From the NCBI RefSeq assembly GCF_004364345.1, contig NZ_SOCA01000001.1, positions 496,001 through 560,000 of the forward strand: 64,000 nucleotides of DNA, read 5' to 3'. Position 1 is the stretch's first letter. Every line of letters begins with the position of its first letter. This document shows positions 29,619 to 49,000 of the stretch, piece by piece. The translations under genes and the position numbers were made by a program. This DNA is from Prosthecobacter fusiformis (lineage in GTDB: Bacteria > Verrucomicrobiota > Verrucomicrobiia > Verrucomicrobiales > Verrucomicrobiaceae). The notes beneath the pieces were generated by a model, which saw nothing but the letters and a program-made list of their open reading frames with translations, had not been told where the DNA came from and made no database searches.

Positions 29619-30695
29619 TTATTTCAACCCAGCCTCCGCTAGCCGCTCCTGTAGATCACTGGCCAAGAGGCTGTCCACGATCTGGTCCACGCGGCCTTCC
29701 ATGAACATGTCCAGGTTATAGACGGTCATTTCGATGCGGTGATCGGTCACGCGATTCTGCGGATAGTTATACGTGCGAATTTTTTCTTCGCGACCACCGC
29801 TGCCGATGAGGTTGCGGCGGTGGGCGGAATACTTGGCAGCCTCTTCCTGCTGCTTCTTTTCCAGCAGGCGAGAGCGCAGGATGGTGAGGGCTTTTTCTTT
29901 GTTTTTGATCTGACTGCGACCGTCCTGGCAGCGAACGATGGTGCCAGTAGGGATGTGCATGACCTGCACAGCGGAGTCCGTGGTATTCACCCCCTGGCCA
30001 CCGGCACCGGAGGAGCGGCAGACTTCGATACGGACCTCATCCGTTTTGAGTTCAAAATCCACCTCTTCAGCCTCAGGCAGCACGGCCACTGTGGCAGCAG
30101 AGGTGTGAATACGCCCCTGTGCTTCTGTGGCAGGCACACGCTGGACGCGATGAACTCCGCTCTCATACTTCAGCACACGGAAGACATCTTCCCCGCCGAC
30201 TTTCATGACGATTTCTTTAAATCCGCCGACATCCGAAGGACTGGATTCCAGCGTCTCCACCTTCCAGCCACGAGTTTCGGCAAAACGAGAATACATGCGC
30301 ACAAGATCCGCCGCAAACAGCGAGGCTTCATCCCCTCCCGTGCCAGCGCGGATTTCCACCAGGGCATCTCGGCCTTCCAGGGGATCCGGCGGGAGAATGG
30401 AAAACTGTACTGATTTCTCCAGTTCTTCGACGCGCTTTTCAATGAGCGGAATCTCAGCCGCCGCCATCGCTGCAAATTCTTCATCACCGGCTTTCAGCAT
30501 TTCCTGGCTGTCCGCCAGTTCGGTGAGCTGCTTTTGATATTCATCCCAGCTTTCCAGAAGGTTTCCTAACGTCCGATGTTCCCGGGTAAGTTCCCCCGAC
30601 TTTTTCGGATCATCAAAGAAGCCCGGCTGGCCCATGAGTTCTTCGAGGAGCTCAAAACGGGTGCGTTTCGTGGCGATGATGGGGGCGTAATCCAT
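29619..30695 (-). CDS. prfA: Peptide chain release factor 1
   Basis: 358 residues. It recognises UAA and UAG stop codons and triggers peptide release. The codon-reading tripeptide PAT is at 188-190, which marks RF1 rather than RF2 (SPF). The catalytic GGQ is at 232-234 in SSGAGGQGVNTTDSAV. Domain order and length are normal. It lies between rpmE and prmC on one strand. Confidence 0.97.
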   Translation of the reverse strand: MDYAPIIATKRTRFELLEELMGQPGFFDDPKKSGELTREHRTLGNLLESWDEYQKQLTELADSQEMLKAGDEEFAAMAAAEIPLIEKRVEELEKSVQFSILPPDPLEGRDALVEIRAGTGGDEASLFAADLVRMYSRFAETRGWKVETLESSPSDVGGFKEIVMKVGGEDVFRVLKYESGVHRVQRVPATEAQGRIHTSAATVAVLPEAEEVDFELKTDEVRIEVCRSSGAGGQGVNTTDSAVQVMHIPTGTIVRCQDGRSQIKNKEKALTILRSRLLEKKQQEEAAKYSAHRRNLIGSGGREEKIRTYNYPQNRVTDHRIEMTVYNLDMFMEGRVDQIVDSLLASDLQERLAEAGLK

Positions 30696-46228: not shown

Positions 46229-47233
46229 ATGTCTCTCACTCCAGAAAGCCGCATTCTTGTCACCGGTGGCGCCGGATTCATCGGCAGCGCCCTTATATGG
46301 GAACTCAACCGTCGCGGTTGTGAAAACATCATCGTTTCTGACCGTCTCTGCACCGACGAGAAATGGAAGAATCTCGTCCCGCTTCATTTCCATGATTACG
46401 TGGATGGTGGCGACCTGGAAAAACACATCCGCACTGCGCCCGAAAGCCTGGGCCATTTTGATGTCATCCTCCACCTCGGAGCCTGCTCAGCCACTACTGA
46501 AAAGGATGCGGACTACCTGATGCGGAACAATTACGAGCTCACCAAGATCCTTTGCCAGTGGGCTCTGGCTAACGGCACCCGCTTTGTTTATGCCTCCTCA
46601 GCCGCCACTTATGGCGATGGTGCCCTGGGCATGGATGACCAGCTCGCCGACCTGCACTCTCTACGGCCGCTGAACATGTACGGCTATTCAAAGCATCTGT
46701 TTGACCTGCATGCCAAGCGCACGGGCATGCTGAGCAAGATCGTTGGCATGAAATACTTTAATGTCTATGGCCCCAACGAGGACCACAAGGCAGACATGCG
46801 CAGCGTCGTCCACAAGGCCTATGGCCAGATCCTGGACAAAGGTAAAGTGCAGCTCTTCAAATCCCATCGTCCCGACTACAAGGACGGTGAACAGATGCGC
46901 GATTTCCTCTACGTCAAAGATGCCATCCAGATGACCCTTCACCTGGCGGAGAATACTCAGGCCAATGGTCTCTTTAACCTTGGCTCCGGCCAAGCCCATA
47001 CCTGGGTCCAGCTCGCTCAGGCCATCTTCGCCGCCCTGGGCAAGGAGCCGAACATTGAATTCGTGGATATGCCTGAACATCTCCAATCGAAATACCAGTA
47101 CTATACCTGTGCGGACATCACCAAGCTTCGCACTTTCGGGTATACCCAAGAACTGTTTACCCTGAATGAGGCCGTGCGCGATTATGTGCAGGGCTATCTC
47201 ACGGGCGATAAACGCCTGGGTGACGAAAAATAG
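46229..47233 (+). CDS. hldD: ADP-L-glycero-D-manno-heptose-6-epimerase
   Basis: 334 residues. A short-chain dehydrogenase-like sugar epimerase supplying heptose for the LPS inner core. ILVTGGAGFIGSAL is the NADP-binding loop. YASSAATYGDG and MYGYSKHLFD supply the Ser, Tyr and Lys of the active site. FNVYGPNEDHKADMRSVVHK and RDFLYVKDAIQ are blocks of the HldD (RfaD) subfamily. It implies a Gram-negative LPS core with heptose in this organism. Other heptose genes are not here. Confidence 0.93.
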   Translation: MSLTPESRILVTGGAGFIGSALIWELNRRGCENIIVSDRLCTDEKWKNLVPLHFHDYVDGGDLEKHIRTAPESLGHFDVILHLGACSATTEKDADYLMRNNYELTKILCQWALANGTRFVYASSAATYGDGALGMDDQLADLHSLRPLNMYGYSKHLFDLHAKRTGMLSKIVGMKYFNVYGPNEDHKADMRSVVHKAYGQILDKGKVQLFKSHRPDYKDGEQMRDFLYVKDAIQMTLHLAENTQANGLFNLGSGQAHTWVQLAQAIFAALGKEPNIEFVDMPEHLQSKYQYYTCADITKLRTFGYTQELFTLNEAVRDYVQGYLTGDKRLGDEK

Positions 47234-47259: not shown

Positions 47260-47302
47260 ACCGAGCCAGTGGGAGCCGTTTGAGTTCCACTGGCTTCTCG
47301 GT
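47260..47302. terminator. Imperfect hairpin after hldD
   Basis: ACCGAG-CCAGTGGGA and TTCCACTGG-CTT-CTCGGT pair with a three-base bulge. On the plus strand no T-run follows. On the minus strand the stem is followed by TTTTATT. It may still stop or stabilise the hldD message. Confidence 0.4.
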
Positions 47303-47424
47303 TCAGTACTCAGCTAGATGAGTATAAATACTGGGATTCAGCCTCCACCCTTCCAGGGTGCTTGAGGCAGGGGAGAGGTGTCAGGGATTGACATTTAGTT
47401 CTTATCATGGAATAGGTGAATACA

Positions 47425-47563
47425 TGATTCTTGTCATCCGCCCCAAATTTAACTCCGTGCCAGGTGATCGCCTGGCAGGAGAAGGGCCGGTGGCAGGCTA
47501 AGCGGACGAATCTGACGACGCTTCCAACCACTCCCCTTTTGACCCTGGGGCGGTGGTTTTTTT
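47425..47563 (+). ncRNA. Candidate structured leader or small RNA ahead of the MATE gene
   Basis: Two stems (47458-47477 and 47500-47523) and an intrinsic terminator are packed in order into about 110 bases. The 5' end is set only by the distance to a TTGACA box and is uncertain. It could be a riboswitch-type attenuator or a free small RNA. I could not match it to a known class (guanidine, manganese, preQ1, SRP, 6S). Confidence 0.4.
47526..47563 (+). terminator. Intrinsic terminator 49 bases before the MATE start
   Basis: AACCAC-T-CCCC and GGGG-CG-GTGGTT pair around a ten-base loop and are followed by seven T. It faces the MATE gene, so either the gene starts from a promoter beyond it or read-through is regulated. 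Confidence 0.8.
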
Positions 47564-47611
47564 GTGCCGCTGCCTGTCTGTACTTTTCCAACCTTTCGCG
47601 CGGCAGCGTTT

Positions 47612-49000
47612 ATGCACTCTTCCCTTTCCACCCCTTCTGTTTCTTCGACCCCAATTACTTGGCCCAGCTTTGGCCAGGAATGCCGGATCACTCTCAAACT
47701 GGCAGTGCCATTGGTCTCAGGACAACTGAGCCAGATGCTCATGGGCGTGGCTGATACGGTCATGATCGGCACTGTGGGTGTGCTGGCTCTCGGCGCATCC
47801 ACTTTTGCGAATACTTTGTTAGCCGTTCCATACGTGCTGGGTATCGGGCTGCTGAGTTCGGTTTCCGTGCGTGTCTCGCAAGCCCATGGAGCCAAGGCTC
47901 CAGAAGAGGCGCGGCAAACGGTGCGGCATGGCACGTGGCTGGCGCTGGGGCTGGGACTGCTGGTGGTCTTGGGCACGGTGGCTCTGATCCCGATGCTACC
48001 TCATTTTCAACAGCCTGCAGAAGTGGTGGAGCTAGCGCCGGTCTATCTGCTGACCTGCGCTATTTCACTGATCCCGGCACTGATGATGATGGTGTGGAAG
48101 AACCATGCCGATGCACTGAACAAGCCCTGGCCCCCGTTCTGCATCATGGTTGGCAGCGTGCTATTGAATGTGCTGCTGAACTGGCTGTGGATCGAGGGAC
48201 ATGCAGGCTTCCCGGCCATGGGGCTGGAGGGTGCAGGGTATGCGACGCTGACGGCGAGGATCATCGGCGCGCTTGCCCTTTTTATCTGGTTGAACCGGAG
48301 TCCGACTGTCCGGGAATGGAGTCCGGTGCGCTGGCTGGTGCGGACGCAGATGCAGGGGTTTTCTTCTTTGCTGAAAATCGGCCTGCCTGCGAGTTTTCAT
48401 CTCTTAGCCGAGGTCACGGCCTTTGTGATGGCCTCCCTGATGATCGGTTCACTGGGAGTTATTCCTCTAGCAGCGCATCAGGTAGCCATCACCTGCATCG
48501 CCACTGCCTTTATGGTGCCGCTGGGAGTGGCCATGGCGACCACCGTGCGCGTGGGCGAAATCGTGGGAGCGAATCAGCGGGCGCGGTTGCACCGAGTACT
48601 GGTGGGGAGCTGGCTTTTTGCCACGCTGTTTATGTCAGTATCCATGGGCGTGTTCTTTATCTGGGGTCAGCCCCTGGCAGCGCAATTTGTGAATGATGCC
48701 GGGGTCATCGAGGCGGCAGCAGCACTGCTGGTGGTGGGTAGCCTTTTCCAACTTTTTGATGGCCTCCAGGTAGTCTCTGCAGCCGCCCTTCGGGGAGTGG
48801 ATGATGTGAAAGTGCCCGCATGGATCGCCGTGCTGGCCTACTGGACCATTTCTCTACCTTTAGGCTGGCTGCTAGGCCTCCAGATGGGCTGGGGCGCGAC
48901 CGGCATCTGGGCAGCCCTGGCCGTGGGCTTGGCGATTGCGGCGGTAATGCTGATGTGGCGGGCTTGGCGGTTGCTTGGGGTATACAATGGGAAAATTTAA
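47612..49000 (+). CDS. MATE family efflux pump
   Basis: 462 residues with about twelve membrane helices in two bundles. LAVPLVSGQLSQMLMGVADT is the hallmark first helix of NorM-type MATE proteins, with the cation-linked Asp nearby. MVWKNHADALNKPWPPF and AALRGVDDVKVPAWIAVL are the paired cytoplasmic-side motifs of the two halves. It exports cationic drugs or metabolites using Na+ or H+. The ATG at 47612 is preferred because the upstream 16 codons overlap the terminator region. Its TAA overlaps the stop of the next, convergent gene. Confidence 0.9.
   Translation: MHSSLSTPSVSSTPITWPSFGQECRITLKLAVPLVSGQLSQMLMGVADTVMIGTVGVLALGASTFANTLLAVPYVLGIGLLSSVSVRVSQAHGAKAPEEARQTVRHGTWLALGLGLLVVLGTVALIPMLPHFQQPAEVVELAPVYLLTCAISLIPALMMMVWKNHADALNKPWPPFCIMVGSVLLNVLLNWLWIEGHAGFPAMGLEGAGYATLTARIIGALALFIWLNRSPTVREWSPVRWLVRTQMQGFSSLLKIGLPASFHLLAEVTAFVMASLMIGSLGVIPLAAHQVAITCIATAFMVPLGVAMATTVRVGEIVGANQRARLHRVLVGSWLFATLFMSVSMGVFFIWGQPLAAQFVNDAGVIEAAAALLVVGSLFQLFDGLQVVSAAALRGVDDVKVPAWIAVLAYWTISLPLGWLLGLQMGWGATGIWAALAVGLAIAAVMLMWRAWRLLGVYNGKI

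Follow-up and report, generated by a model that had tools for sequence, protein, structure and literature searches.

A putative ribosome-controlled transcription attenuator in the leader of a MATE efflux pump gene of Prosthecobacter fusiformis

A gene for a MATE efflux pump in Prosthecobacter fusiformis is preceded by a structured stretch of DNA, and the question raised by this locus is what that stretch does for the pump. The window, that is, the whole stretch of DNA that was analysed, is 64,000 nucleotides long; positions are counted from its first letter, and the leader features and the MATE gene are on the forward strand. The interval in question (47425–47563) sits between a gene with an Epimerase domain (Pfam; 46229–47233), which we take to be hldD, and the MATE gene. 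Read 5' to 3', the locus comprises a -35 box, a weak -10 candidate, an open reading frame (ORF) of 25 codons which contains a hairpin (SL1), a second hairpin (SL2), an intrinsic terminator, a further hairpin (SL4) and the ATG of the MATE gene. Comparison of related leaders and modelling of their folds make it likely that this leader is a ribosome-controlled transcription attenuator of the pump.

The product of the MATE gene (47612–49000) is a NorM-like efflux transporter with a MatE domain (Pfam, E-value=1.9e-49) and with NorM structures among its PDB matches. It scores above the cut-off of TIGR00797, the matE subfamily model of NCBIfam (244 bits versus 147), and below the cut-offs of the NorM equivalog models (260 versus 449, and 172 versus 950). 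A protein search (E ≤ 1e-60) found the gene in seven of 48 same-genus genomes, that of P. fusiformis included, and in all seven it is accompanied by the leader with its ORF; these seven are called the core leaders below. A longer, GTG-started reading of the MATE gene opens at 47564, directly after the T-run of the terminator. We prefer the ATG at 47612, as it is common to the seven core leaders and as one of them (G018) has a deletion of two bases just before it; in the other six the ATG context is GTTTATGCA.

The -35 element (TTGACA, 47388–47393) is identical in all seven core leaders and is followed, after a spacer of 17 bases, by the weak -10 candidate AATAGG (47411–47416). Both were recognised by their consensus only, and a stricter promoter scan listed none at the leader. 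Inspection by eye showed two more hairpins (47261–47305 and 47340–47368), neither with a T-run, in the stretch from the upstream gene to this promoter. The leader ORF (47424–47501), which the preliminary description did not mention, specifies the peptide MILVIRPKFNSVPGDRLAGEGPVAG and ends with TAA at 47499–47501. Its ATG lies one base before the interval and seven bases after the -10 candidate, and the ORF fills the first half of the interval. The core alignment has insertions and deletions on both sides of the ORF, while its length is exactly 25 codons in seven of seven core leaders.

The preliminary description of this DNA had proposed two stems and an intrinsic terminator, the latter ending 49 bases before the MATE ATG, and the sequence and its folding bear this out. 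The interval folds at -59.1 kcal/mol, compared with -45.3 ± 4.2 kcal/mol for dinucleotide shuffles (z = -3.3; two of 200 shuffles as good). SL1 (47453–47481) lies inside the leader ORF and has four pairs that are changed on both sides among the core leaders. SL2 (47500–47523, stem AAGCG/CGCTT, loop with the GAATCTGACGA block) begins within the stop codon of the ORF, and a ribosome on that codon would be expected to melt it; in genomes G034 and G019 the stem is GAGTG/CACTC. The terminator (47526–47563) is predicted by folding to have a stem at 47526–47558 with a loop of 10 bases and a run of seven T (the U-run, 47557–47563), and its alignment column pair 168/188 reads G-C, U-G, C-G and U-A across the seven core leaders. 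A simple terminator scan with a loop limit of 8 did not list it, probably because the predicted loop exceeds that limit. SL4 (47568–47608, CGCTGCC/GGCAGCG) ends three bases before the MATE start codon; 97.9% of its alignment cells are paired in the core leaders, and it has no changes on both sides.

A further pairing was noticed by eye, between GATTC in the first codons (47426–47430) and GAATC in the conserved loop after the stop codon (47508–47512). It is present in some folds, and extended versions, GATTCGG/CCGAATC in G034 and GATTCGT/ACGAATC in G045, represent a compensatory change. Such a pairing might hide the ATG of the leader ORF.

Four segments of the leader can be drawn into alternative helices. 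Segment 1 (codons 3–7, 47430–47443) is predicted to pair with segment 2 and is a candidate anti-antiterminator. Segment 2 (codons 21–25, GGGCCGGTGGCAGG, 47484–47497) can take either segment 1 or segment 3 as its partner, and segment 3, the 5' arm of the terminator (47524–47538), can pair with segment 2, as an antiterminator, or with segment 4, as the terminator.

Leaders of drug pumps are a place in which a ligand-binding attenuator might be looked for, and one was suggested here in the preliminary description. The attenuator ahead of a drug pump is upheld by ten MATE leaders and by the joint covariation of SL1, terminator and SL4; the ligand-binding part is unsupported, because conservation has kept a short ORF with its stop codon, along with segments that offer the terminator an alternative pairing, and because there is no match in Rfam. 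That the element could not be placed in a known class agrees with the Rfam scan, which at gathering thresholds gave no match in the whole window; around the interval, up to an E-value of 10, it listed only four unrelated families (E-values of 1.5–4.4). We regard as quite unlikely a riboswitch in which an aptamer joined to the terminator senses a substrate of the pump. A structured leader with a terminator ahead of a transporter would suit it, as would the conserved part of the SL2 loop. That loop does contain GACGA twice, as had been remarked, and the first copy is not shared among the leaders; the second lies in the block GAATCTGAC, which is exact in four of the seven core leaders (the P. fusiformis leader included), reads AATCTGAC in a fifth, and is missing from the two most distant ones, which speaks against an aptamer. 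Moreover, the conserved core includes an ORF of fixed length with start and stop, and between lineages the sequence varies whereas the order promoter, ORF, stop and terminator is constant. A new riboswitch class is not supported.

How far the leader extends was investigated by DNA, peptide and covariance searches. Among 96 genomes searched with the DNA, 12 matched: the genome itself and four of the same genus with long matches upstream of MATE, and seven with short ones. A profile of the seven core peptides, run against 288 genomes of the order, recovered those seven with E-values below 1e-12; the next matches begin at 0.0018, and matches at E ≤ 0.5 occur in 167 of the 288. Two of these next matches (L070 and L071, E-values of 0.0018 and 0.0026) were judged by eye to be pieces of one coding gene and were rejected. 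When 68 genomes of the family were searched with a covariance model of the leader, 27 of them yielded 31 matches in all, and the seven core genomes scored E ≤ 2e-29. The weak matches in G058 (1.6e-4) and G053 (0.013) are also MATE leaders (loci L135 and L143), and the model missed the MATE leader of G048 (contig C125), chance matches having similar E-values. In all ten family leaders examined, namely the seven core ones and those of G048, G053 and G058, the element precedes MATE. A search of plasmids for the leader gave no match, and an apparent second copy in the same genome (L002, 88% identity over 34 bases) lies inside an open frame of 798 amino acids and was set aside as chance.

By eye, 11 other loci matched by the covariance model (L134, L136–L142 and L144–L146) are not MATE leaders. 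At five of them (L134, L136, L139, L141 and L144) the match falls at the end of apparently one recurring gene with a GC-rich terminator; its protein, translated for L134 and L136, ends in ...KKA.

Covarying pairs, to which the preliminary description had looked for a decision, were found for SL1, terminator and SL4 taken together and not for the helix of segments 2 and 3 (2:3) within the core. In the seven-row alignment the three hairpins have eight cells changed on both sides (two of 500 shuffles as high) and five pairs with a change on both sides (27 of 500), and their covariation score was reached by none of 500 shuffles. The 2:3 helix was not above shuffles among the seven core leaders, and shifting it by +1 to +3 raises the covariation score.

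Upstream regions of MATE relatives were then compared. MATE matches were present in 104 of 384 genomes, and loci were taken from the best 30 of the 104, 26 of which were used besides the core. In all, 74 upstream regions were compared, L023, L024, L026, L034 and L060 having been removed as duplicates before the counts of the scan, its controls and the ORF test. An automatic scan for a -35 box, an ORF of 12–45 codons and a terminator found the full layout in 26 of the 74; the other 48 did not pass. Of the 74, 0–3 passed per round in 15 rounds of dinucleotide shuffling, and one passed as its reverse complement. When loci were picked solely by a -35 box and a terminator at a suitable distance, 26 of the 74 qualified, and 24 of these 26 have an ATG-started ORF of 15–40 codons beginning 22–48 bases after the -35 box, compared with 2.5 expected when the stretch in between is shuffled. 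The two misses are L103, with a GTG-started ORF, and L097, with an unclear terminator.

Within the window, two of 65 mechanical ORFs of at least 200 amino acids passed the same scan, the MATE locus and a gene end at 30695, by eye rpmE before prfA and a false positive. It bears on another possibility, that the terminator before MATE is an ordinary one at the end of a gene, either the upstream epimerase gene or a true small-protein gene, and stands there by chance. The false positive is of just this type, and the covariance model also picks gene ends. Against this, 190 bases, with the -35 box among them, separate the end of the epimerase gene (47233) from the leader ORF, and at L004 the upstream neighbour is a different, divergent gene while leader and MATE are still kept. 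We consider a chance end-of-gene terminator extremely unlikely.

For measurements of spacing and pairing, 25 leaders with a readable ORF and terminator were picked by hand, all from among the 74 loci; 24 of the 25 were scanned in a form accepted by the automatic scan, or nearly so. Left out were L030 (no TTGAC[ACT] box), L097 (terminator unclear), L110 (ORF ambiguous) and loci without the layout. The spacing and the -10 candidates, chosen by a script, were compared in these 25. From the -10 candidate to the start codon there are 3–8 bases in the seven core leaders and 7–15 in 16 of the other 18, the remaining two having 21 and 26, so that the distance is at most 15 bases in 23 of 25. None of the 25 ORFs has GGAG, GAGG or AGGA, as parts of a Shine-Dalgarno sequence, in the 15 bases upstream. 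The short distance and the lack of such a 4-mer make it probable that the leader transcript begins with the start codon of the ORF or slightly ahead of it.

Leader peptides differ between lineages, and the order of promoter, ORF, stop and terminator stays. The peptides MNPFSTPAALAG...GGMA and kin belong to genus g30 of family f2, peptides ending in ...AAGLR to family f45 (L107 and L120, the ORF used for L120 being MDTRSRK... and not the one reported by the automatic scan), and peptides ending in ...GLV to L028 and L029; that of G048 is MNSARSRHDRSPATKPVGIMEPGWEF, with a near copy in G058. A second peptide family, approximately MKxFRMPAAxDDLVVxRGDMS, was noticed in g30 of f2 (L105, L106, L108, L109, L112 and L122–L126), and in its leaders a helix of up to 9 bp, GCGGGGRCA/UGUCCCCGC, could serve as an antiterminator.

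Does the peptide itself matter? Substitutions in the ORF are spread evenly over the codon positions (164, 163 and 158), with no preference for the third, and one reverse-strand frame scores close to the ORF (126 versus 171) but has two internal stops. Absence of an in-frame stop together with conservative replacements was reached by 33 of 3000 column permutations of the core, and by 223 of 3000 for the second family, for which nine of ten rows (all but L126) were aligned with hand-placed gaps. The substitution pattern thus modestly supports coding, selection on the peptide itself is weakly visible, and the main role that we see for the ORF is to be a track along which the ribosome moves. Amino-acid attenuation was rejected, as there are no runs of codons for one amino acid; none of the seven core peptides has the run of one residue that is the hallmark of amino-acid leaders.

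A leader in which the nascent peptide arrests the ribosome and is itself the sensor is unlikely. Residues M1, R6, G19, G21 and P22 are invariant in seven of seven core peptides, and the motif AGxGP presumably recalls arrest peptides of the SecM type. R6, G21 and P22, however, are located in pairing segments, and the codon of G21, GGG in all seven, is in segment 2, so that RNA pairing can explain the invariance. The peptides of other lineages differ and synonymous changes are not in excess. Arrest of the SecM kind is set back because G21-P22 falls in a pairing segment and AGxGP is absent from the other lineages.

The attenuator reading was examined by folding with the ribosome placed at different codons. 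Free full-length folds of all seven core leaders contain SL1 and the terminator, and early ORF bases pair with the end of the ORF to a differing extent. When the transcript is cut off ahead of segment 4, the 2:3 helix is predicted in seven of seven for a ribosome at codons 1–10 (maximum pair probability 0.99–1.00) and in six of seven (not in G045) for one at codons 12 and 14; at codon 17 the outcome is mixed (0.03–0.98). A ribosome at codon 21 or 25 abolishes the helix, and one at the stop leaves at most 0.5 expected pairs. Cut transcripts with no ribosome favour 2:3 in seven of seven ensembles (0.72–1.00), and in these models the untranslated state is not clearly 'off'. In full-length equilibrium folds with the ribosome at codon 8, the terminator is kept in five of seven leaders; the model therefore needs the antiterminator to form first, and the order of folding matters.

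Since GC-rich sequence pairs easily, the 2:3 pairing was tested in three ways, by shuffling, by cognate swaps and by a sliding window. With segment 2 shuffled, 25 of 25 leaders pair better than the shuffled mean, but even after shuffling segment 2 tends to match the C-rich arm, and in only seven of the 25 are at most five of 100 shuffles as good; 18 of the 25 leaders scored as switches. The swaps were made over eight lineages, as nearby genomes are not independent: two of 20,000 permutations pair segments 2 and 3 as well as the cognate combination, and seven of the eight lineages, L096 being the exception, beat the additive expectation. When a window was slid along the leader and paired with segment 3, p was ≤ 0.0008 if the window ended from -6 to +9 relative to the last base of the stop codon, 0.013 if it ended at -9, and 0.26–0.83 if it ended at least 18 bases before that base. 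For comparison, segments 2 and 4 gave 0.69, and segments 3 and 4, which form the terminator, gave 0 of 5000. Between the early ORF and segment 2, one of seven windows was significant (bases 13–39, p = 0.0008; next 0.057); of segment 1 it takes in the later part only, and in the shortest ORFs it runs a few bases into segment 2.

The cognate pairing of the terminator arm with the 3' end of the ORF also bears on whether the element is a stand-alone small RNA ending at the terminator, with MATE served by a promoter of its own. The -35 box, compact fold and strong terminator would be in keeping with such an RNA, which had been offered in advance as the alternative to an attenuator. It has come out as the weaker reading, and a very unlikely one: the pairing ties the terminator to the ORF, the spacing from stop codon to terminator arm is 25–41 bases in the 25 leaders measured, and the element stands before MATE in each of the ten family leaders.

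Ribosome-controlled attenuation would then work as follows. From the promoter with the perfect -35 box, an RNA would begin at the ATG of the 25-codon ORF or a few bases upstream of it, and its segment 2, at the 3' end of the ORF, would pair with either segment 1 (early ORF) or segment 3 (5' arm of the terminator). Under normal translation a ribosome at the stop codon would cover segment 2, the 3:4 terminator would form, and transcription would end near 47563 with the pump off; each such event should also release a leader RNA of about 140 nt that ends at the terminator. Were the ribosome held at about codons 1–10 (in most leaders up to 14), segment 2 would be free and would capture segment 3 before segment 4 is made, and with the 2:3 antiterminator formed, RNA polymerase would read through into the MATE gene. 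The signal would most likely be impaired translation, caused for example by a ribosome-targeting compound. Two features expected of an attenuator, a short ORF between promoter and terminator and an intrinsic terminator between ORF and gene, were found by sequence and folding, and a third by computation only: an antiterminator that takes up part of the terminator arm and cannot form while a ribosome sits at the end of the ORF.

In amino-acid leaders of the trpL type, three alternative pairings, 1:2, 2:3 and 3:4, compete and the position of the ribosome decides among them. The leader described here resembles trpL in this scheme and differs from it in having no run of codons for one amino acid. 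Its closest counterparts are antibiotic-responsive leaders. According to its report (PMC9226507), the vmlR leader of Bacillus subtilis, which precedes the gene of an ABCF resistance factor, has been shown experimentally to work through a three-codon ORF with a Shine-Dalgarno sequence inside an anti-antiterminator, and two of three peptide variants from other species were as effective as the native one (PMC9226507). Common to both leaders are a short ORF overlapping the anti-antiterminator (a candidate here), mutually exclusive antiterminator and terminator, and a further hairpin at the start of the resistance gene or its Shine-Dalgarno sequence, SL-4 in vmlR and SL4 here (PMC9226507); by analogy with the role proposed for SL-4, SL4 may hold back translation of MATE. 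The P. fusiformis leader differs in its 25 codons, in the lack of a Shine-Dalgarno sequence, in its MATE pump and in its host, a member of the Verrucomicrobia, and its mechanism is predicted by computation, whereas that of vmlR was shown by experiment (PMC9226507).

The bmrB leader of bmrCD, also of B. subtilis, has been shown experimentally to respond to several ribosome-targeting antibiotics (PMC4191407). It shares with the present one a leader ORF, three alternative stem-loops (anti-antiterminator, here a candidate, antiterminator and terminator) and a multidrug exporter downstream; according to that report its ORF has 53 residues, its terminator lies inside the coding region and its exporter is of the ABC type, whereas here the terminator begins about 25 bases after the stop codon (PMC4191407). 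In Escherichia coli, the toiL upstream ORF of topAI is a single short ORF that answers to many classes of ribosome inhibitor through the site at which the ribosome stops (PMC12121999); by the account given there it acts on translation initiation and Rho and not, as proposed here, on an intrinsic terminator (PMC12121999).

Among the matches listed from the open-licence literature, taken by their titles and the beginnings of their abstracts, none describes such a system for a MATE pump or in Verrucomicrobia. A word search of surveys of attenuators and structured RNAs gave no MATE, Verrucomicrobia or Akkermansia, and their one multidrug passage concerns an ABC leader in lactobacilli. As far as the literature matches listed go, the leader is best explained as a logic known from other bacteria in a new setting, that of a MATE pump and of Verrucomicrobia. 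The chances appear about even that in Verrucomicrobia a near-leaderless, fast-evolving ORF of about 19–28 codons is widespread, and that the position of the ribosome on it, and not its product, decides on transcription of MATE. If so, the MATE pump would belong to a general response of Verrucomicrobia to translation inhibitors. The attenuator reading of the leader would extend the antibiotic-sensing attenuators of Bacillus to MATE pumps and to Verrucomicrobia, and it predicts that the compounds which induce the pump are translation inhibitors. Lineages that keep the cognate pairing with different peptides would offer a natural test of ribosome position against sensing by the peptide.

One further observation, of a neighbourhood that is shared but of another kind, was made at 11 MATE genes whose upstream regions did not pass the leader scan (L025, L031–L033, L035, L037, L039–L041, L050 and L058): a tRNA-Lys gene (anticodon CTT), on the opposite strand, lies about 110–190 bases before the start of the MATE match.
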